From a virus: a stretch of DNA of 20,459 nucleotides. A program made the translations under genes and the position numbers. Under the pieces are notes generated by a model, which was not told where the DNA came from, searched no databases, and saw only the letters and a list, made by a program, of their open reading frames with translations. Positions within the stretch are counted from its first letter, which is position 1. Each line of letters starts with the position of its first letter. The stretch lies in the IMG/VR virus record IMGVR_UViG_3300031975_000022, positions 1 through 20,459 of that record; one strand, 5' to 3'. This document shows positions 1,425 to 10,974 of this stretch, in pieces.

Positions 1425-1769
1425 TTAGCCCCCATTAAGTGTGTCTAAATCGTTCCATACTTTAGTGGCATGGGCCGATGCATCAAAGGTAACATCATTA
1501 CCATCGCTGTCTTGATCTTTCCAATCATTAGCATTAGCAGAGTTTGTTAGGTATGTCTGTAAGTCAGACTTGCTACTAATCTCAGCAATAGCACCTGATA
1601 TGTCTGCACCGTCATCAGCTATACCTATCATAATCCAATCTTGAGGACTAGCCGTACCAGCATCAGCTACAGGGTACATACCACCTGTGCCTTGAGGTAC
1701 ACCAAACTTTAACCATGTAGGTATTGTACCATCTGCTTCTAGTCTATACTTTACTACTTTATACGCCAT
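1425..1769 (-). CDS. Hypothetical virion-type protein
   Basis: This 114-residue acidic protein begins MAYKVVKYRLEADGTIPTWL. The first 60 residues look beta-rich (Gly, Val, Ile, Tyr alternation). The second half is more helical and ends in KVWNDLDTLNGG. There is no signal peptide or TM. A GAGGA ribosome-binding site sits about 7 nt before the ATG, inside the 3' end of the upstream gene, which it overlaps by 11 nt. Its position just after the adhesin array and the coiled-coil gene suggests a minor structural role or a chaperone for fiber proteins, but nothing in the sequence shows this. Confidence 0.75.
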   Translation of the reverse strand: MAYKVVKYRLEADGTIPTWLKFGVPQGTGGMYPVADAGTASPQDWIMIGIADDGADISGAIAEISSKSDLQTYLTNSANANDWKDQDSDGNDVTFDASAHATKVWNDLDTLNGG

Positions 1770-2595
1770 TACTTTTATCCTCTATCTGTGGTGTGTTTGT
1801 TAAAGATGTTTCGTCGTATATAATAAAGCCACGACTTTCTGCAAAATCACTTGGGCAGTGCGCCCATTTATCTGCACAACCTTCAAGCCACTGTACTGTG
1901 TGATGATGCTCTGGAGCTTTGCCTTGTTTAACTAATTCATTTTCCCAGTTAAGATAAGAGAATACTTCTGCTTGAGCTTGGGCTGCATTAATACCTAAGT
2001 CAAACAAATAAATCATGTTACCTTCATCAATCACACCTTGTCGTGGCCTTGCACTATTTAATGCTTGTTTCATACAAGTCATTATGTGGTATTTAATTTC
2101 TTCTAGCTCATAGTCTTCTTCTGTGAGTTCTTCTTTACCTATTTTTTTCATTAAGTTATCATACTGATTAGTAAAAAAGTTTAACTTACGTACTGCACCT
2201 TCAACGTAGCCACGAGATGATGCAGCGTTAGCCTCTTTCTCGTTAATCTTTATTTCAAGCATCTCACGCTCAAGATCATCAGACTCATTCTCTAGCTTAC
2301 GCTCTAGCTTCTTTAGCTTAACTTCTTCCTTCTTCATACGGAAATAGCCTTCTTGCAAAGCAGACTTGGTTTTTTCAATTTCAGCAAGCGTATGCTTTAC
2401 AGAGCGAATAGGCGTAATTGCTGTAACGTCTAGTGTTACGCTCATCATTTGTGAGTGAGACTTATAAAAGTTGCTAGATGCCTGTGCAATTGCAGGGGCT
2501 TTATCCGAAATGTTAGCCAGCATAGACTTATACTCAGGCTTTGCAGATGGAAGCTGAATGTTAAGATCTACCGTAGTTAATTCTGTGTTAGACAA
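1759..2595 (-). CDS. Hypothetical coiled-coil protein, TTG start
   Basis: This 278-residue protein is read from a TTG codon at 2595. The start is chosen because a strong Shine-Dalgarno, AAGGAG, lies 7 nt upstream, whereas the next in-frame Met (residue 25) has no such site. Residues about 68-125 are a long, highly charged helix rich in Lys and Glu, very probably coiled coil. The C-terminal third carries Trp, His and Cys in KAPEHHHTVQWLEGCADKW, a possible metal-binding cluster, though the spacing matches no site I can name. The gene has its own promoter (see 2625-2653) and is first of a short distal operon running left. I do not recognise the family; a role in fiber assembly or virion structure is only inferred from position. 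Confidence 0.8.
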   Translation of the reverse strand: MSNTELTTVDLNIQLPSAKPEYKSMLANISDKAPAIAQASSNFYKSHSQMMSVTLDVTAITPIRSVKHTLAEIEKTKSALQEGYFRMKKEEVKLKKLERKLENESDDLEREMLEIKINEKEANAASSRGYVEGAVRKLNFFTNQYDNLMKKIGKEELTEEDYELEEIKYHIMTCMKQALNSARPRQGVIDEGNMIYLFDLGINAAQAQAEVFSYLNWENELVKQGKAPEHHHTVQWLEGCADKWAHCPSDFAESRGFIIYDETSLTNTPQIEDKSNGV

Positions 2596-2624
2596 TGAGT
2601 AACTCCTTCTTATTGTTCTTGTGA

Positions 2625-2653
2625 GTTATATCATATTTTGTTAAATGTTGCAA
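2625..2653 (-). promoter_or_regulatory. Sigma70-type promoter for the distal operon (extended -10)
   Basis: On the minus strand TTGCAA (2653-2648) is followed by a 17-nt spacer and TATAAC (2630-2625), with a TG one base before the -10 (extended -10). The -35 begins 4 nt after the stop of the last propeller gene. The predicted transcript would start near 2618 and reach the AAGGAG ribosome-binding site of the TTG-started gene within about 20 nt. This is called from base matches only. Confidence 0.6.
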
Positions 2654-2657
2654 GTAC

Positions 2658-3671
2658 TTATGCAGCTATACCACCGTGGGAGTTGGAAACTGCTCCATTT
2701 GCACCGCTACCACTACTTAAATCACCAAAGTCTGTAGCATCCCCAGTTGATGCTATTGTAAAAAAATCAAGAGTATTATTATTATTGCCAACACTTGAAA
2801 CTGCTCTAGTAGAACTGGCAACAGACATACAATGTAAAGAATTTGAGTTACTTAAATTACCAAAGTCCGTAGCATTTCCAGTTGATGCTATGGTAATATA
2901 ATCAACAATATTATTATCTCCCGCACTTTCACCGCCAAAAAACATTCCTCTAGTGGTATTACTAGCACCGCCTCGAGATGGTCTACCTACAGTTAAGTTA
3001 CCAAAGTCTGTTGCATTTCCAGTTGATGCTGTAGTTATGTAGTCTATAACATCACTTGTACTATTACCTCCCCCAAACACTCCCCTAGTGCTTGATTGAC
3101 ATCCCCCTAATTGATACCTAGTAACTGATTGATCACCAAAGTCAGTAGCATTTCCTGCTGAAGCTATGGTAAAATATTCCATTCTATTATCAGAAGTTCC
3201 ACCTATTCTACCTGTAAAAACCGCCCTTGTTGAGTTTGATACACCTGCACTTGTATAAGATGTAGCACCTAAATCACCAAAGTCTGTAGCATTTCCTACA
3301 GTAGCAAAAACAATAAAATCAACAGTATTTACAAAAGAACTACCAGAATTTTCGCCACCTGCAAACAAACCTCTAATACTGTTAGAAGCACCTGCATCAT
3401 CATAACGTGATAAAGTTAAGTCTCCCCAATCAGTAGTGTTACCTGCAGAAGCAATTAATAATTGATCTAATACATTAGTTGCTGCTGCATACCCTGCATG
3501 AAAAATACCTGTAGCAGCTAAATTAGCCGCATTAGGCCAATTACCACCTCTAACATAATCATACTGATCTTGTAAGTTCCACACACCAGAAGCTGCACTA
3601 CTTACAAGTTTACCATCAGGTTCTACTTTTGTTGCGGAGATTATGTTGCCTGTCATTTGTTTGTACGACAT
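2658..3671 (-). CDS. Kelch-like six-repeat propeller protein, third paralogue (putative tail adhesin)
   Basis: The ATG at 3671 (MSYKQMTGN) is chosen because it overlaps the upstream stop as TAATG and has GGAGGA 8 nt before it. An ATG at 3692 would add seven residues without such a site. The 337-residue chain begins with an attachment-like segment (GVWNLQDQYDYVRGGNWP) that is paralleled by GVWSISTHYQ in the gene before it. Six repeats of about 47 residues follow, each with STRGVFxGG, then NxxDYITIASTGNATDFGDL. The chain ends GAVSNSHGGIAA, which looks like the first strand of a further repeat and could close a propeller ring with the N-terminal GIFHAGY strand. Unlike its paralogues, its HGG is coded CAC GGT GGT, so no Shine-Dalgarno is embedded, and no coupled gene follows. 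Host-surface binding is an inference. Confidence 0.85.
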   Translation of the reverse strand: MSYKQMTGNIISATKVEPDGKLVSSAASGVWNLQDQYDYVRGGNWPNAANLAATGIFHAGYAAATNVLDQLLIASAGNTTDWGDLTLSRYDDAGASNSIRGLFAGGENSGSSFVNTVDFIVFATVGNATDFGDLGATSYTSAGVSNSTRAVFTGRIGGTSDNRMEYFTIASAGNATDFGDQSVTRYQLGGCQSSTRGVFGGGNSTSDVIDYITTASTGNATDFGNLTVGRPSRGGASNTTRGMFFGGESAGDNNIVDYITIASTGNATDFGNLSNSNSLHCMSVASSTRAVSSVGNNNNTLDFFTIASTGDATDFGDLSSGSGANGAVSNSHGGIAA

Positions 3672-4615
3672 TATGCTAGTCCTCCGTGGCAATCTGAAAG
3701 AGCAGCACCCTTCTCCGAATTTCCAATTAAGTCTCCAAAATCTTGAGCATTTCCTGTTGATGCTATTGTAATATAATCTATAATAGCAATATCACCAGAA
3801 GCTCCATCACCACCTGCAAAGATACCTCTAGTACTATTGGCACAATTCCCAAGGAATATACCTCTGCGACCAACCGACAAATCACCAAAGTCTTGAGCGT
3901 TTCCTGCTGATGCTATTGTTACATAGTCCATTACATTGGTATCTCCATTACCCCCACCCCTAACGGCACGAATAGAATTAGAGACAGATTGAACCTGTTG
4001 TTTAGCCGCAGTTAAATCACCAAAATCAGATGCATTTCCTGCTGAAGCTATAGTTATATATTGAATAACATTTGTGTCGTTTGGAGAAGTTTCACCTCCA
4101 AGTATAAGACCTCTTGTTGTGCTACCACAGCCACTAGAGCTTCCCACTATAACTACTGTAGCATCACCAAAATCAGTAGCATTTCCTGTTGAAGCAATAG
4201 TTACATAATCTATAACATTAGTTTCCTGAGTATCACCGCAAAACACAGCACGGGTAGCACTTGATAAAGAAGCAGGACTATTTGCAGAAACCGTTCTATC
4301 CCCAAAATCAACAAGATCACCTTTTGAGTTTGGTGTAATAAATGAAATAGAATTAGCATCTGGGGTTGTTTTGGCTATAATACCTCTAGTTGACGAACCT
4401 GAACCCGAAGAGTTATTAATTGTTGCAGAAAGAGTTCCGAAATTAGTCTCGTCTCCCAAGGACGAAATATTAATAAATCCTCTTGCTACACTGTGGCCTC
4501 CAGTTCCACCCATAAATATACCAAGGTCTCCACCAGGAATAAACCCAGCCCAGCTTTGATTACCTATTGCTTGATAGTGTGTTGAGATGCTCCATACGCC
4601 ATTATGGTTGGGCAT
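3671..4615 (-). CDS. Kelch-like six-repeat propeller protein, second paralogue (putative tail adhesin)
   Basis: This 314-residue protein starts with MPNHNGVWSISTHYQAIGNQ, a short N-terminal element of the GVW..xxQY type shared with the next paralogue and probably used for attachment to the tail or to a partner. Six repeats follow. The first two are divergent (SSLGDETNFGTL, NSKGDLVDFGDR) and the last four are close to consensus (IASTGNATDFGDA and similar). The end, ALSDCHGGLA, is the conserved terminal strand. Its HGG codons (CAC GGA GGA) form the ribosome-binding site of the next gene, which starts in the TAATG overlap at 3671. The start itself uses the same arrangement from the gene upstream. 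A structural adhesin role is inferred from repeat type and position after the tail fiber. Confidence 0.85.
   Translation of the reverse strand: MPNHNGVWSISTHYQAIGNQSWAGFIPGGDLGIFMGGTGGHSVARGFINISSLGDETNFGTLSATINNSSGSGSSTRGIIAKTTPDANSISFITPNSKGDLVDFGDRTVSANSPASLSSATRAVFCGDTQETNVIDYVTIASTGNATDFGDATVVIVGSSSGCGSTTRGLILGGETSPNDTNVIQYITIASAGNASDFGDLTAAKQQVQSVSNSIRAVRGGGNGDTNVMDYVTIASAGNAQDFGDLSVGRRGIFLGNCANSTRGIFAGGDGASGDIAIIDYITIASTGNAQDFGDLIGNSEKGAALSDCHGGLA
3680..3685 (-). promoter_or_regulatory. Shine-Dalgarno embedded in HGG codons, drives 2658-3671
   Basis: GGAGGA on the minus strand is both the Gly-Gly codon pair of the conserved C-terminal HGGL and an excellent ribosome-binding site for the ATG at 3671. 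It decides that start over the ATG at 3692. Confidence 0.8.
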
Positions 4616-5175
4616 TATGAAAGTCCTCCGTGGGCATTAGATACACCAGTAGTGGCATTAGCAGGAGTAACTAAGTCACCAAAGTCCGTGGAATTACCTG
4701 CACTTGCTATGGTAATATAATCTATTACATTACTATGTGTGCCAGCGCCTTCATCATTACCTCCTGCATGTACACCTCTTGTTGAACTAGAAACGCCAGT
4801 AACATATCTTCTGTCTACAGTAAGATCACCAAAGTCAGTAGCATTTCCTGTACTTGCTATGGTAATGTATTCAACAGTTTGTCCTGAAGTTGGGCCGCCA
4901 GTAAAAACACCTCTAGTAGCACTTGATAAACCACAGCCTTGATTAGTAATTCTGCTTAAATCGCCAAAGTCAGAAGCATTACCTGTACTTGCTATTGTAA
5001 TATAGTCCATTGTATTAACTGAGTCGCTTGCACTTTGTGAATAACCACCTGCAAATACTGCTCTAGTAGATGAAGCTACCGCACTAGGATCACGAGCGAC
5101 AGTTAAATTACCAAAGTCAGTAGAGTCACCTGTACTTGCTATAGTAATATATTCTATTACATCTACTCTAGCCAT
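4615..5175 (-). CDS. Kelch-like propeller, second part of first paralogue (four repeats; probably continues the frame of 5175-5819)
   Basis: This 186-residue frame starts at the ATG in TAATG at 5175 (MARVDVIEYITIASTGDSTD), so it begins in the middle of a repeat. It carries four repeats and the conserved terminal strand GVSNAHGGLS. It lacks the N-terminal attachment element seen in the other paralogues (GVW..xxQY or a fibronectin domain), so on its own it looks like a fragment. A -1 shift at TTTGGGG (5184-5190) joins it to the preceding frame through LGDYIMARVDVIE, and the fused protein then has six repeats. Independent translation by reinitiation is also possible: GGGGA lies 7 nt before this ATG. 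The gene end contains the GGAGGA ribosome-binding site for the next paralogue. Confidence 0.8.
   Translation of the reverse strand: MARVDVIEYITIASTGDSTDFGNLTVARDPSAVASSTRAVFAGGYSQSASDSVNTMDYITIASTGNASDFGDLSRITNQGCGLSSATRGVFTGGPTSGQTVEYITIASTGNATDFGDLTVDRRYVTGVSSSTRGVHAGGNDEGAGTHSNVIDYITIASAGNSTDFGDLVTPANATTGVSNAHGGLS
4624..4629 (-). promoter_or_regulatory. Shine-Dalgarno embedded in HGG codons, drives 3671-4615
   Basis: GGAGGA within the codons for the terminal His-Gly-Gly-Leu lies 8 nt before the ATG at 4615. It has the same arrangement and nearly the same spacing as the site at 3680-3685. Confidence 0.8.
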
Positions 5176-5819
5176 TATGTAATCCCCAAACTAAATACAC
5201 CTCGTGTGCTACTACTTGCACCTCCATTAGAATTAGGATTGTGGGCAGTAGATGCATCACCAAAATCTGTAGCATTACCAGTTGAAGCAATAGTAATATA
5301 ATCTATTACATTAGATTTTCCACCTGAAGTATTCCCACCTGAATAAACACCACGAGTGCTACTAGCCATACCTCCCCTAGATGTACTAGTAATAGTCATA
5401 TCACCAAAGTCTGTAGAGTTACCTGTTGAACCAATAGTTATATATTGCAATACATTTGTACGCACGTCTGATGCACTAAATCCTCCACCTATAACACCTC
5501 TAGCAGCAGCAGGTGTAATACTATCAGTTGCATCACTAGCAGCAGATGTGCCATAAACATTAACTGCATAAGCTCTAAATGTAACAGCAGTACCTAAAGT
5601 AAGACTACTTACACTAATGGGAGAAGAACTACCTGTAGCACCTACACCATTACTAGCTGTAGCAACAAAACCTGTAATAGCAGATGTGCCTGTATTTGTA
5701 GGAGCAGTAAAACTAATACTAGCTACACCATCTGAACCACCACTAACAGTAACACCTGTAGGTGGATCAGGTGCATCTAATCCATCAGTACCAATAAAGC
5801 CACCGTTACGTCTTGCCAT
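5175..5819 (-). CDS. Fibronectin type III domain plus two kelch-like repeats: first part of first propeller paralogue
   Basis: This 214-residue frame starts MARRNGGFIGTDGLDAPDPP. Residues about 17-103 form a fibronectin type III-like domain (PPTGVTVSGGSDG near the start, FRAYAVNVYGTS near the end), common in phage tail adhesins. It then enters the propeller (ARGVIGGG, then YITIGSTGNSTDFGDM) and completes two repeats. It stops after STRGVFSLGIT, part-way through a repeat, without the terminal HGGL strand of the other family members. The stop overlaps the next ATG (TAATG). A TTTGGGG heptamer in the right phase (5184-5190) would let a -1 shift continue into 4615-5175, giving about 400 residues with the same six-repeat plan as the paralogues. 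A base undercall in the G run would look the same. Confidence 0.8.
   Translation of the reverse strand: MARRNGGFIGTDGLDAPDPPTGVTVSGGSDGVASISFTAPTNTGTSAITGFVATASNGVGATGSSSPISVSSLTLGTAVTFRAYAVNVYGTSAASDATDSITPAAARGVIGGGFSASDVRTNVLQYITIGSTGNSTDFGDMTITSTSRGGMASSTRGVYSGGNTSGGKSNVIDYITIASTGNATDFGDASTAHNPNSNGGASSSTRGVFSLGIT
5184..5190 (-). other. Candidate -1 ribosomal frameshift site (T_TTG_GGG) or broken-frame position
   Basis: Minus-strand TTTGGGG is read in the zero frame as AGT TTG GGG ATT ACA TAA, matching the X_XXY_YYZ slippery pattern. After a one-base backward slip the codons are TTT GGG GAT TAC ATA ATG, entering the frame of 4615-5175. A GAGGTG element 7 nt upstream resembles the Shine-Dalgarno stimulators of bacterial -1 sites, but it also encodes the conserved RGV. 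I see no strong downstream stem, only a weak GTAAT/ATTAC pair. A fifth G in the run would restore one frame with the identical product. Confidence 0.5.
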
Positions 5820-5821
5820 TG

Positions 5822-6187
5822 TTATGCATCATCCATAAGTTCAAAGCTACACAAGTATGTTAAGTCACTAGCTGCAGAAGCGGTAACTGCAAGTAAGTCT
5901 GTTTCATCTAAGTAAAATCCATTGTCTTTACCTACAACAACTAGTGTTGCATCAGCAGGTACAGATACTGTTTTAGCTATAGCTACATAGTTAGAACCAT
6001 TGTCTACACTTACTTCTACTGTAACATCAGCAGCATTAGCACCATCAATGTTTGCAATAATTAGTGTGTTTACTTTAGCAACTTTGTCAGCAGCTACATC
6101 AATAATATTTGCCCTACTTGTTGTTATTGCACCAGCTACTGTTGTAGGTGTAATGCTCGATACGTTAATTAGATTAATTACGGCCAT
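5822..6187 (-). CDS. Small virion-type protein (hypothetical)
   Basis: This 121-residue protein has alternating hydrophobic residues throughout, consistent with a beta-sandwich: NTLIIANIDGANAADVTVEV, then VDNGSNYVAIAKTVSVPADA and a C-terminal TYLCSFELMDDA. Short proteins of this type accompany tail and neck genes in many marine phages as virion components, but I cannot assign a specific role. The ATG at 6187 has AAAGGA about 8 nt upstream. It lies 12 nt after the tail fiber stop and 2 nt before the fibronectin/propeller gene, so it is in the same operon and may be an adaptor between fiber and adhesins (inference). Confidence 0.75.
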   Translation of the reverse strand: MAVINLINVSSITPTTVAGAITTSRANIIDVAADKVAKVNTLIIANIDGANAADVTVEVSVDNGSNYVAIAKTVSVPADATLVVVGKDNGFYLDETDLLAVTASAASDLTYLCSFELMDDA

Positions 6188-6199
6188 TTATTTTTTCCT

Positions 6200-8296
6200 T
6201 TATCCGAATACGATTGCCATAGCAATAGCAAAACCTTTAGTAGCTGAACTACCACTAGCATAAGTTTTTATGTCTGATGCTGGAATAGTCTTCATTGTTC
6301 CACCATCATTAACTACAAAACCATCTGCATCTGCTACTGTTATTGAACCGCCAACAGAGGTGTTACCATCTAATAAGTTCAATTCTGATGCTGTTGCTGT
6401 AACACCGTCAAGAATATTAAGTTCAGCAGCAGTAGATGTTACACCGTCAAGAATGTTTAGTTCTGCAGCAGTAGATGTTACACCATCAAGAATGTTTAAT
6501 TCGGCAGCGGTAGATGTTACACCGTCAAGAATGTTTAGTTCTGCACCAGTAGCAGTAACTGCAGTACCACCATAGTTTAAATTACCTGCACCTATTACAA
6601 TCTCGCCTGTACCTTTAGGCGTAAGTGCAATGCCTATATTAGTATCACCACCTGTAGCTGCAAGTATAGGATTACTACCACTAGCATTATTAGTTATCTC
6701 TAATTGATTTACGGCAGAGCTTGTTGTTTGAAATACTACAAGTTCATTACCATTAGCATCAGCTAGAAATCCACCATCAGCTATTTTAGGTGCAGTAAGT
6801 GTTTTATTAGTTAGTGTATCTGTAGAAGCTGTTGAAACTAAATTAACATTACCGCCTGTGCTTGGGAGTGTTAAAGTGTTTGAAGCCGCTTCAGAGTGTG
6901 GTGCTCCTTGAAGTATTTGTGCATGGGCATTACTAGACTCACAATAAAATTTAATTTGTGATTGTGCACCTGCATTCTTTAAATCAATTAATCCTGACTC
7001 TATTCCTACATTACCATCAATAACTACTTGACCAGAGCCTTTAGGTAATAATTTTAAATCAATATTAGTATCACCACCAGTAGAAGCAATCTGTACACCA
7101 CTACCACTAGCGGCATTTGTAACTTCTATTTGATTGACTGCAGAGCTAGTAGTTTGAAAAACTATCTGTTCATTACCATTTTCATCACCAATAAAATGTG
7201 CATCGTCAATAAGTATGTTATTAGAATTTGTATCTAAGTTACCACCTAGTTGTGGAGATGTATCTTCTACTACATTAGATAAAGCAGAAGATGTAGCAAG
7301 TCCTGAAACTATATTTGACCTTGTTATTTTTTTAAGGCCACCACCAGAAGTATCAACAGCAAGAAATACATCATCGTTGGCTACCGTACTAATTTCTGAT
7401 AAATCTCCTATAGTAGTATTACTTACATCAAGAATATTTAACTCTGCTGCAGTAGCTGTTACACCATCTAAAATGTTTAATTCAGCAGCAGTACTAGTTA
7501 CGCCATCCATAATATTAAGTTCAGCAGCAGTTGCTGAAATAGCTGTACCATTAAAATTAATAGCATCTAAGTATGCTGTACCATCTATGTATATATCTTT
7601 AAATTCTAATGAACTAGAACCTAAATCTACGTCATTATCTGTTGTAGGAAGTATAGAGCCATTGTTAAATGTAATCTGTGTTTCACCGCCAGTAGTAATT
7701 GTAATTACATCTGAACCACTAAATGCTATACTTGTGTTTGTATCACTATCACCAGATATGCTATCTAATTGTATGTCACCAGCATTAGTAAAGTTTGAGT
7801 CACTAAGGTCAAACGTTCCTGTAACATCTAAGTTACCACCTATAGATAGATTACCAGATATATCTACTGCACCATTTATATCAACAGTAGTAGCAGCAAT
7901 TTGTATTTCTGTATCAGCTACAAGATCAAGTTGACCATCGGCACTAGAATTAATATATATAGCGGTATCACGAAACTGTATTTTTTCTGAAGTTGCAATA
8001 AGAATGTCATCAGAAAATTCAAAGTAATCTTCATCTTCCATCCATTTTAAAACACCGTCATTTGTTTCACCATCAAAGGTTATAACAATATCTGTACCTG
8101 AAGTACCTGCACCAAACGTTAAAGCATGACCAGCCATTGTACTAATGGGGCCACCTTCACCTGTAGTACCGTCATGTGTGTGTCCTGTACTTGCTGCAAA
8201 TGCAGCTAATAGCTGATCAAATTCATCATTAGTGTGTGCTGCAGTAATGGTATCTCCATCTGCGTAAGTTGATTGTCTTGTGTATGTAGCACCCAT
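6200..8296 (-). CDS. Tail fiber protein with TAAELNILDGVT repeats
   Basis: This 698-residue protein begins with a conserved attachment-type segment (YTRQSTYADGDTITAAHTND, then THDGTTGEGGPIS) typical of marine phage fibers. The shaft is beta-rich (SGNLSIGGNLDVTGTFDLSD) and holds two clusters of the 13-residue TAAELNILDGVT repeat, near residues 252-293 and 579-642. A module of about 64 residues occurs twice (about 361-424 and 504-568), each copy running from GNE..VFQTTSSAVNQ to TGGDTNI and PKG. There is no obvious C-terminal peptidase or intramolecular chaperone motif; the chain ends GSSATKGFAIAMAIVFG. It starts directly after the stop of the tail tubular B gene (TAA ATG). It presumably forms a trimeric fiber, with the propeller proteins downstream as candidate tip or accessory adhesins (inference). 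Confidence 0.88.
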   Translation of the reverse strand: MGATYTRQSTYADGDTITAAHTNDEFDQLLAAFAASTGHTHDGTTGEGGPISTMAGHALTFGAGTSGTDIVITFDGETNDGVLKWMEDEDYFEFSDDILIATSEKIQFRDTAIYINSSADGQLDLVADTEIQIAATTVDINGAVDISGNLSIGGNLDVTGTFDLSDSNFTNAGDIQLDSISGDSDTNTSIAFSGSDVITITTGGETQITFNNGSILPTTDNDVDLGSSSLEFKDIYIDGTAYLDAINFNGTAISATAAELNIMDGVTSTAAELNILDGVTATAAELNILDVSNTTIGDLSEISTVANDDVFLAVDTSGGGLKKITRSNIVSGLATSSALSNVVEDTSPQLGGNLDTNSNNILIDDAHFIGDENGNEQIVFQTTSSAVNQIEVTNAASGSGVQIASTGGDTNIDLKLLPKGSGQVVIDGNVGIESGLIDLKNAGAQSQIKFYCESSNAHAQILQGAPHSEAASNTLTLPSTGGNVNLVSTASTDTLTNKTLTAPKIADGGFLADANGNELVVFQTTSSAVNQLEITNNASGSNPILAATGGDTNIGIALTPKGTGEIVIGAGNLNYGGTAVTATGAELNILDGVTSTAAELNILDGVTSTAAELNILDGVTSTAAELNILDGVTATASELNLLDGNTSVGGSITVADADGFVVNDGGTMKTIPASDIKTYASGSSATKGFAIAMAIVFG
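6371..6560 (-). repeat. Tandem 39-bp repeats in tail fiber gene (C-terminal cluster)
   Basis: About five tandem units encode TAAELNILDGVTS. The middle units are nearly identical at DNA level (tcagcagcagtagatgttac followed by accgtcaagaatgttta), while the first and last units are more divergent (GAELN, ASELNLLDGN). Copy number may vary by slippage. Confidence 0.9.
7421..7540 (-). repeat. Tandem 39-bp repeats in tail fiber gene (N-terminal cluster)
   Basis: Three units encode TAAELNI(M/L)DGVT-type sequence, and the last diverges into LDVSNTT. They show more synonymous divergence than the other cluster, which suggests they are older. Confidence 0.85.
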
Positions 8297-10036
8297 TTAA
8301 CGTCTAGCTCCTAATTGATATTCTAGTTGAAACCCTTTTAAGGAGTATGGGTTACTTTCTCCATCATCTTCAACTTTAAGTATTACAGAAAAACCTGATC
8401 CTTCAACAGCTTTTCTATCTAAAGGATCTTGACCGCCACCATATATAAATTGTGTTGTACTAGAGGTTGTACTATAAACTGCTGTTCCATATGCTGCAGA
8501 TAAATTTACTGTAGAAAAAGGATAGACTGCTGGCCTAGCTGAGTTTTTATCTTCATTATCATAACGTACAATTAAATCAGCGTCAACACTTCCTTCAGGT
8601 CTATAGTTAATAATAACCTTTTGCATATGTTTACGTATGCCAGAATCGCCAAACACCATGTCTGGCCCTCTGTATTTACCTTTTATAGTTGTTCCATCAA
8701 AGGTACTTCCTATTTCTTGTCGTTGTACAAATCCATTAATGTCTCCATGTAAAACAATAACATCACCTGTTTCTACAAAAGTATCTGTACATGTAGTTTT
8801 AAAACCTTTAAGTTCTGAAAACTCAAAACCTTCTTTTTTTAAAACACAAGTAGCTCCTTTAGAAAGTTCAGCAGATTGACCTGTTCTATTAAAAAATATT
8901 CTATATTGAGTTTTGTCTGGAATAACTACACTATCAAAATCTACTGAGTTACTAATATTTTCATCAAAAATAGATTGTATATTTTTACTAATTGTTCCTA
9001 GCTCTGTATCGCCAATACGTTCTGTAGCAGCAATAGTACGTAATCCATCAGGACCAAGAAATATTAAATCACCTGCAAATTCTTGTACAGTAAAACTATT
9101 AATACACCCAATACTTCTAGTAACAGGTTCTACAACAAAATCAGAACTAGAAGAACCTGTCAATTTAAATATTCTATTTTCACAAAAAATAAATAAACTA
9201 TTACGAAAAACTTTTAATGCAACAACAGTATCATCTACCTTAACGCTACCTGCACCATTACCTGTATTAAATCCATCTTCATTAAGAGGTTCACTAAATA
9301 TTACTTCTTGTGGTGTAGTAGATTTACCCGCATAAAACATATGGTTTCTATACGCAGCTACTACAGTTGAACCTGCTACACTACTATCTGTAACATCTGT
9401 AGCAGACAAAGAAGTGTTAAAAACTACAGGTGCATTAACTTGATCTACTAAAATAATTTTTTCATTGCCATCAAAATTAAATCTTTCAAACTGATATTTA
9501 TTAGCATTAGTTCTATCTGTATCTATTTGTGTCCATTCTTGTGATACTGACGAATCAGTAGTGTGTGCTGCAGCAGTAGTGCTTGAAACTGCCCTAGTTA
9601 CACCTGTAAAAGAATTTGCTGTAACTCCTGTGTAGGTAAACTTTTCATCACCTATTTGAATAGTACCACTGGCAGAAAAACCTGTAGTAGAATCTACAGT
9701 TAAAGCACCTGCACCAGACATACTAGTACTTGATTCAACACGAATAGATAATTGTGTAGAGGCAGAATAGTATATTCTTTCACCTCTAGCTGCTAATACT
9801 TTATTATCAAAAGAAGCAACCATTAAAGGTTCTTCAGAAGTAGTATTGGTAATAGGTATTACTTGATTAACATATTTAGTATAGCCATTTATTCGTCTAT
9901 AACCACCTTGAATATCAGGCTCAAAGTTCTCTAATTGTAATGCCTGTCCTGGGTCCATTAAGAAACTAGAACGGTTAAGAACTAATCCACCTTGACAGTT
10001 AAATGCAACAGGTTGTAATTGAGCATTATCAGGCAT
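8297..10036 (-). CDS. Tail tubular protein B-like / stabilisation protein
   Basis: This 579-residue protein has the N-terminal signature of podoviral tail-tube B or stabilisation proteins: NRSSFLMDPGQALQLENFEP followed by GGYRRINGY (residues about 21-52). A beta-propeller-like middle contains LMVASFDNKVLAARGERIYY, VAAYRNHMFYAG and DLIFLGPDGLRTIA, and the C-terminus is FQLEYQLGARR. Residues about 103-168 hold an extra domain (STTGFSASGTIQIGDEKFTY, FTGVTRAVSSTTAAAH) that also occurs in the neighbouring tail tubular A-like protein. It starts in a TAATG overlap with that gene, and its stop abuts the fiber start. It probably builds the tail tube distal to the A protein and anchors the fibers. Confidence 0.85.
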   Translation of the reverse strand: MPDNAQLQPVAFNCQGGLVLNRSSFLMDPGQALQLENFEPDIQGGYRRINGYTKYVNQVIPITNTTSEEPLMVASFDNKVLAARGERIYYSASTQLSIRVESSTSMSGAGALTVDSTTGFSASGTIQIGDEKFTYTGVTANSFTGVTRAVSSTTAAAHTTDSSVSQEWTQIDTDRTNANKYQFERFNFDGNEKIILVDQVNAPVVFNTSLSATDVTDSSVAGSTVVAAYRNHMFYAGKSTTPQEVIFSEPLNEDGFNTGNGAGSVKVDDTVVALKVFRNSLFIFCENRIFKLTGSSSSDFVVEPVTRSIGCINSFTVQEFAGDLIFLGPDGLRTIAATERIGDTELGTISKNIQSIFDENISNSVDFDSVVIPDKTQYRIFFNRTGQSAELSKGATCVLKKEGFEFSELKGFKTTCTDTFVETGDVIVLHGDINGFVQRQEIGSTFDGTTIKGKYRGPDMVFGDSGIRKHMQKVIINYRPEGSVDADLIVRYDNEDKNSARPAVYPFSTVNLSAAYGTAVYSTTSSTTQFIYGGGQDPLDRKAVEGSGFSVILKVEDDGESNPYSLKGFQLEYQLGARR

Positions 10037-10974
10037 TAAGAAATAGTTCCCATCAAAGTATTACCATAGCCTGTTGATCTTTCAATATAAGTAGATCTAA
10101 CATATTCATATTTATTAATAAGAAGACTTTGCATATTTTTAATTCCTTGTTGGAATCTATCAAACGTTATTTGATATTGCTGTCCTTCTCCACGATATTG
10201 ATATACAAAAGCAGAAGCACCATCTACAATTACAGGAGCAAATCTTTCAGGTATAGTAGTAGTATCTCCATGTGCATCTAAGTCACTAGGAAATGTAAAA
10301 TAATCAAATGTTAATGTGTATTGTTTATCAGGCAAAGGATATAATAAATAATTATTGTCAGGTGAACGTACTATAAACTGTGGTATCCCACCATTTTCAA
10401 ACTGTGTTACAGTTACTCCACTACTATGTGTAGCTGCAGTAGTACTATTAGCACCACGAGTGCACCCTGTAATATCATTACCTAATATACCTGTATAGGT
10501 AACTTGTTCACCGCCAATGTGTACAGTACCAGATGTATCAAGTCCTGTAGTAGACGTTAATGTTAAGGTTGCTACAGAACTAGAATGAGAACCATTAAGT
10601 GTTGTAGATACAACTTCATCTTCTTGTGTCGCATATTCTTTTTGAATGTACTCATTATAATTTAATGTTTTTAAATTGTTACCAGATGCGTTTACATCTG
10701 TATCTTTTTTAATTCTAGCTGTACTATAATCTACAGACTTTGTACTTGTAGGTAAAGAGTATCGTGCTACACCAGCAGTAAGCGTAGAACTATTAGTAGC
10801 ATGATTAAAAGAATAACCAAACTCTCTTTGATTAATATATCGAATAGCTTCGTTAACAGCATTTTTACATTGCACTTGTACTCCCCTAGCATTTGCAAAA
10901 TCGCTAGAGGTAAGAGATACTTCATTCATTCTTGTTATAACATCATTAGTTAATGATAAAAATGTAAGTGCCAT
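10036..10974 (-). CDS. Tail tubular protein A-like (head-to-tail adaptor ring)
   Basis: This 312-residue protein follows the capsid module and precedes the B-like protein, the usual place for tail tubular A or gatekeeper proteins. The N-terminus (LSLTNDVITRMNEVSLT followed by CKNAVNEAIRYINQREFGY) and the C-terminal helical region (FAPVIVDGASAFVYQYRGEG, then FDRFQQGIKNMQSLLINKYE) match that type. Residues about 124-191 form an inserted domain (STTGLDTSGTVHIGGEQVTY, ITGCTRGANSTTAATH) homologous to one in the next protein; family members I know do not need it. The ATG at 10974 has AAGGA 6 nt upstream, and this site lies inside a 7-bp hairpin (10982-11000), so translation may be modulated. Confidence 0.8.
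   Translation of the reverse strand: MALTFLSLTNDVITRMNEVSLTSSDFANARGVQVQCKNAVNEAIRYINQREFGYSFNHATNSSTLTAGVARYSLPTSTKSVDYSTARIKKDTDVNASGNNLKTLNYNEYIQKEYATQEDEVVSTTLNGSHSSSVATLTLTSTTGLDTSGTVHIGGEQVTYTGILGNDITGCTRGANSTTAATHSSGVTVTQFENGGIPQFIVRSPDNNYLLYPLPDKQYTLTFDYFTFPSDLDAHGDTTTIPERFAPVIVDGASAFVYQYRGEGQQYQITFDRFQQGIKNMQSLLINKYEYVRSTYIERSTGYGNTLMGTIS

Follow-up and report, generated by a model that had tools for sequence, protein, structure and literature searches.

The adaptor and the nozzle encoded side by side in this marine phage DNA each carry a copy of the same small module, predicted to be a β-barrel and inserted at a position that is empty in many relatives. With a probability of about 0.75, we consider this module to be a dispensable plug-in decoration domain located in exposed loops of the two proteins. 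According to this reading, tailed phages would insert copies of one small β-barrel family into exposed loops of their virion proteins; here, one copy would occupy the β region of the adaptor, which is the fibre-dock region of the T7 and SU10 adaptors, and the other the edge of a propeller blade of the nozzle. The modules would be accessory, gained and lost independently in both proteins; they would not be integral to the core fold of either protein, nor form a pair by which the two proteins dock onto each other.

The whole stretch of DNA analysed (hereafter the window) is 20459 bases long. Its minus strand encodes, among others and in this order, the terminase large subunit (Terminase_6N), a SU10-type portal, the major head protein, protein A, protein B and a presumed fibre gene. 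Protein A (10036..10974, minus strand, 312 aa) is a tail tubular protein A or head-tail adaptor of the SU10_adaptor family. It matched PF24175 (SU10_adaptor) with 59.9 bits for a cut-off of 27, and phrog_10775 (tail protein) with an E value of 6.7e-45. When PDB sequences were searched with A alone or with B alone, no match was obtained; used as a profile, A recovered the solved 'Tail tubular protein A' of cyanophage A4 (9k09_d, E 3.9e-6).

Protein B (8297..10036, minus strand, 579 aa) was assigned as a β-propeller tail nozzle, or gp10-like stabilisation protein. Over its full length it was matched by phrog_5107, a family named 'amidase', and in addition by phrog_578 (head closure). Its AF2 model had a mean pLDDT of 75, with low confidence in the C-terminal part, and resembled the solved nozzle chains 9nwi_Y of Pa223 (Z 27.9), 7z4b_DW of SU10 (Z 25.4) and 8eap_D of P22 gp10 (Z 24.4); the Foldseek E value with the Pa223 tail chain was 2.3e-21. 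The nozzles of SU10, VP1, P22, GP4 and T7 were also found among the structural matches of the model. Protein B is thus predicted to be a podophage nozzle with a β-propeller plus platform fold.

By sequence, the window phage appears to sit near Puniceispirillum phage HMO-2011, its closest named phage (58.6% identity for A and 49.8% for B over joined pieces). Phages of the HMO-2011 type are reported to be a dominant marine group with a broad distribution (PMC9038755). In the HMO-2011 record (NC_021864, locus L150), the gene N386_gp44 at 5726-7234 is labelled 'amidase', as is phrog_5107. This label is probably a misannotation, because the related protein B is modelled as a tail nozzle.

The gene following B (6200..8296, minus strand, 698 aa) is presumed to encode a tail fibre and gave a weak match to phrog_1171 (tail spike, E 8.7e-5). 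Adjoining it, four consecutive ORFs of 344, 314, 186 and 214 aa (2658-5819, minus strand) have in common a repeat of 43-50 residues with a motif like ITIASTGNATDFGDL, for which a simple pattern search gave 5, 5, 4 and 2 matches, respectively. These four ORFs may be propeller-type paralogues.

When A and B were compared by BLASTP, residues 132-191 of A and 107-166 of B were aligned without gaps, 30 of the 60 positions being identical (50%) and 39 similar (60.1 bits, E 2e-14), and the next-best match outside this segment had an E value of 1.2. The gapped alignment covered A 123-191 and B 103-166, and an HMM of the module recognised A 124-194 at 95.4 bits and B 104-169 at 93.1 bits. The Smith-Waterman score of A against B was 158, whereas shuffling A 1000 times gave no score above 89 and shuffling the segment 5000 times none above 75; once both segments were masked, the best score was 38. 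The shared segment reported in a first-pass annotation of this DNA was thus confirmed, and the span of 9532-10605 given there fits the stretch from one module copy to the other. Its view that the two proteins are otherwise unrelated was also borne out at the level of sequence.

Both segments are rich in Ser, Thr and Gly, and their resemblance might be ascribed to convergent low-complexity sequence. The chance of this is practically nil: shuffles preserving the composition never rose above 75 against the observed 158, the E, Y, TG, R and T positions are conserved over 63 modules, and the module is confidently predicted as a compact fold. At the DNA level, the 60 aligned codons were 61% identical, and the same codon was used at 15 of the 30 identical residues. 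With half of the identical residues encoded by different codons, the relationship would be an old one and not the result of a recent copying of DNA. The overall GC content of the module is about 8 points higher than that of the carrier genes; its GC3 is near theirs and gives no clear sign of a recent import.

The module copy of A (about 10393..10608, minus strand; residues about 123-194, as placed by BLASTP, module HMM and insertion alignment) is a clean insertion of about 71 residues between the motifs QEDE and GGIP, which is absent from HMO-2011-type relatives. It lies in a β region between two presumed helical parts of A, the helices being read from the sequence. The copy of B, at what we call site 1 (about 9530..9730, minus strand; residues about 103-169, as placed by BLASTP and module HMM), is located between the propeller strands 87-96 and 169-172 assigned by DSSP in the B model. 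The B protein of HMO-2011 has no module at this site, the insertion point lying between its residues 94 and 98. A further position in B, site 2 (9374..9394, minus strand; about residues 215-221, an approximate position read from the alignment), is empty in the window; a second copy of the module occupies it in relatives such as L006, L012, L020, L049 and L379. The L379 nozzle (1656-3878) contains three module copies, each at a different site, the third being near the C-terminus.

Loops that are presumably exposed take varied small domains in relatives, which fits decoration. At the site-1 loop, the B protein of Roseobacter phage CRP-345 gave a weak match to the pb9 B-domain (E 6e-5, below the cut-off), aligned to window B 116-162, and that of HTVC104P has a different, β-rich-looking insert. 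An insert in the A protein of HTVC033P was weakly matched by CBM_4_9_1 (E 0.021, below the cut-off). In this last phage (L151), the adaptor at 4001-5101 carries the insert, of about 110 aa and unrelated to the module, some 20 residues upstream of the module place. The CRP-345 nozzle (L320, 3001-5421) is 807 aa long and has a large extra N-terminal region.

The distribution of the module was followed in relatives collected as the best 80 loci per query. Both genes were complete in 286 loci, and removal of identical A/B pairs left 217 distinct ones; these reflect the queries rather than a random sampling. The joint tables exclude ORFs truncated by a contig end and those not longer than 200 aa; apart from those of HMO-2011 and HTVC033P, the apparently module-less proteins of an early table were fragments of this kind. 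Counted as module copies in A and in B, the 217 pairs were distributed as (0,0) 105, (0,1) 7, (1,0) 26, (1,1) 75, (1,2) 3 and (1,3) 1. The module was therefore found in neither protein in 105 pairs, in A only in 26, in B only in 7 and in both in 79, and its presence in the two proteins is decoupled. None of the 15 named phages examined has it in A or in B; they range from HMO-2011, HTVC033P and the CRP phages of Roseobacter to phages of Rhizobium, Sinorhizobium and Pseudoalteromonas.

Relatives with a single copy, the search for which had been proposed in the first-pass annotation, were thus found. The 26 pairs with A only and the 7 with B only give no support to its suggestion that both proteins acquired the domain to contact each other, at least as a requirement. 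Furthermore, the two copies did not prove to be widely conserved components of the core folds, 105 of the 217 pairs having neither.

On a midpoint-rooted tree of the A and B cores of 115 thinned pairs, Fitch parsimony counted one change of module state for A and five for B. The five changes at B fit gains as well as losses, and as modules from the B sites tended to cluster together in the module tree, some of the B absences may be losses.

In the tree of the modules themselves (57 sequences, 71 columns), the A modules of the window clade formed their own group of 8 with 100% support, and 19 modules from B sites 1 and 2 grouped at 99%. The A modules of the sister clade were joined by those of other proteins in a group of 11 sequences (94% bootstrap). 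These groupings place the A and B copies in different module lineages. The site-1 module of the L223 type, considered as an independent capture for its A-like look, was set by the tree near the other B-site modules, without strong support.

Given that A and B are neighbouring genes and that 79 of the 217 distinct pairs have the module in both, one copy could have been duplicated from A to B, or the reverse, within the phage lineage. The A and B modules of one genome were not more alike than those of different genomes (identities of 0.402, n=129 with contig duplicates kept, and 0.405, respectively), and 1993 of 2000 random A-B pairings were at least as similar as the within-genome ones. Likewise, the comparison of within- and cross-genome identities in the 129 genomes gave no signal of gene conversion between A and B modules. 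Together with the 100% clade of window-type A modules, which lies apart from the group of B, other-protein and sister-clade A modules, and with the limited DNA and codon identity reported above, this makes such a duplication very improbable and would leave room at most for a single, very old copying event. The proposal of the first-pass annotation that the module was copied between adjacent tail genes was not upheld by these separate lineages.

Predicted alone from the alignment of 63 sequences, the module gave a compact, all-β structure (pLDDT 93.6, pTM 0.81). Its nearest solved domains all belong to phage structural proteins: 9in6_M, a VP1 capsid entry (Z 10.6), residues 480-559 of the JBD30 baseplate chain 8rk3_b (Z 10.3, rmsd 1.8 over 73 residues), the 116-residue GP4 portal-tail chain 8jov_1 (Z 10.1) and the Mystique tail tube (Z 9.1). 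All Foldseek E values against the PDB were above 0.01, and the N-terminal barrels of F1-ATPase were also matched, with Z of about 7.3. Since the ATPase barrels also match, the arrangement is a common one and the fold alone says little on function. Among predicted viral structures, 61 matches had E values of 0.001 or less. Matches of the module profiles to influenza haemagglutinin HA1 chains and to one monooxygenase in the PDB had E values of at least 0.17 and were judged to be chance matches of short strand motifs.

In searches of Pfam-A and NCBIfam, the module rose above the cut-off of no family; NCBIfam gave nothing, and the best Pfam E value over the 63 modules was 0.0041. The latter came from PF23666 (Rcc01698_C), weakly matched by 5 of the 63 modules, with 15.0 bits against a gathering cut-off of 27 in the single score available. 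PF23666 is the C-terminal domain of the Rcc01698 family, the hub of a gene transfer agent. PHROG profiles were more widely matched by the 63 modules: phrog_4406 (virion structural) by 60, phrog_708 (baseplate wedge) by 49, phrog_11439 (tail fibre) by 47 and phrog_2885 (baseplate wedge) by 46.

Outside A and B, the module was present in 69 ORFs belonging to 16 clusters, with up to 10 copies per ORF. The carriers include phrog_3287 virion proteins, the tail tube B of the Skadi pelagiphage, a phrog_12985 protein and, in L384, a gpJ-like hub (central tail fibre J-like) with Phage-tail_3. The module represents a widespread, unnamed family of small autonomous domains, predicted to be β-barrels. Its occurrence in many unrelated virion proteins, added to its polymorphic presence at the same position in relatives, supported its earlier description as a mobile surface module. 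Two ORFs of more than 2390 aa, in a Kuenenia MAG (L411) and a Planctomycetaceae MAG (L409), contain ten and two module copies, respectively; these planctomycete MAG ORFs may be cellular surface proteins, or viral.

The fibres of T7, SU10 and P-SCSP1u are held by docks on the adaptor and the nozzle (PMC6702177, PMC9509320, PMC10575957), and the insertion of A lies in the corresponding β region. The two modules could then act as a pair onto which the tail fibre docks, the fibre sitting between the adaptor and nozzle docks in T7-like tails; we regard this as distinctly unlikely. Single-linkage clustering by similarity of the N-terminal 90 residues of the gene following B put 208 of 209 pairs, in all module states from A0B0 to A1B3, into a single cluster, and one copy is present without the other in 26 pairs (A) and in 7 (B). 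As the N-terminus of the fibre is alike whatever the module state, the module would not be needed for that fibre; at the level of sequence, this goes against an obligatory fibre dock.

As dispensable decorations, the modules would be exposed at the surface of the assembled tail, a location suggested for A by the architecture of its family. If the stoichiometry of T7 holds, about 12 modules of the adaptor ring and 6 of the nozzle would be displayed. Their job might be, as a first choice, a low-affinity adhesion to glycans or other envelope parts of the host surface and, as a second choice, the bracing of neighbouring tail parts.

A bracing of the tail through contacts between neighbouring adaptor subunits, between neighbouring nozzle subunits or with the fibre base, and without host binding, is conceivable, but we lean against it. 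The module has a structural neighbour in the JBD30 baseplate, and the six-stranded barrel of the JBD30 hub (domain VI), which presumably corresponds to residues 480-559 of chain b, has been assigned a role in stabilising the baseplate (PMC11445458). This stabilising role favours bracing. Against bracing, relatives whose core proteins are the same and whose fibre N-terminus is similar can dispense with the module.

Concerning adhesion, which we propose by analogy, the tail tubular proteins of Vibrio phage OWB are described as binding a host receptor (PMC7241545). It is an unlikely idea that the β-barrels are interchangeable adhesive knobs on the tails of marine phages, copies of which are added or lost at a few fixed loops to tune host attachment while the fibre is left untouched. 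If true, attachment to different host surfaces would be adjusted through the loops of the adaptor and nozzle, without any change of the fibre.

The dispensable decoration proposed here is a case of domains being inserted into phage tails as modules, and nature supplies a clear on/off series: all four combinations occur on a shared adaptor/nozzle core and provide a natural experiment on tail decorations. In a limited literature search, no earlier account of domain insertions in the tail tubular proteins of pelagiphages was found, and absence from print is not claimed. As the module is common across virion proteins and no Pfam or NCBIfam model fits it, naming it would improve the annotation of many hypothetical proteins.

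Several known systems share either the module or the core of its carriers. The families phrog_4406, phrog_2885, phrog_708 and phrog_11439 contain the same module, with nothing else in common, and are not named for it. The small β-barrels of the JBD30 baseplate (480-559) and of lambda gpJ (491-565) may share the predicted module fold (Z 10.3 and 7.2, respectively, gpJ being tied with the ATPases). These siphophage hub barrels differ in that the module has no significant sequence match to solved chains and in that the carrier proteins are others. The adaptors T7 gp11, SU10 gp11, PF24175 and 9k09_d have the same core as protein A; however, 9k09_d, when aligned to the A profile, is without the module of about 71 aa that A carries. 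Similarly, the nozzles T7 gp12, P22 gp10, SU10 gp17 and Pa223 9nwi_Y have the same β-propeller core as that predicted for protein B, which differs from them by the module on the edge of a blade, up to three copies being present in its relatives.
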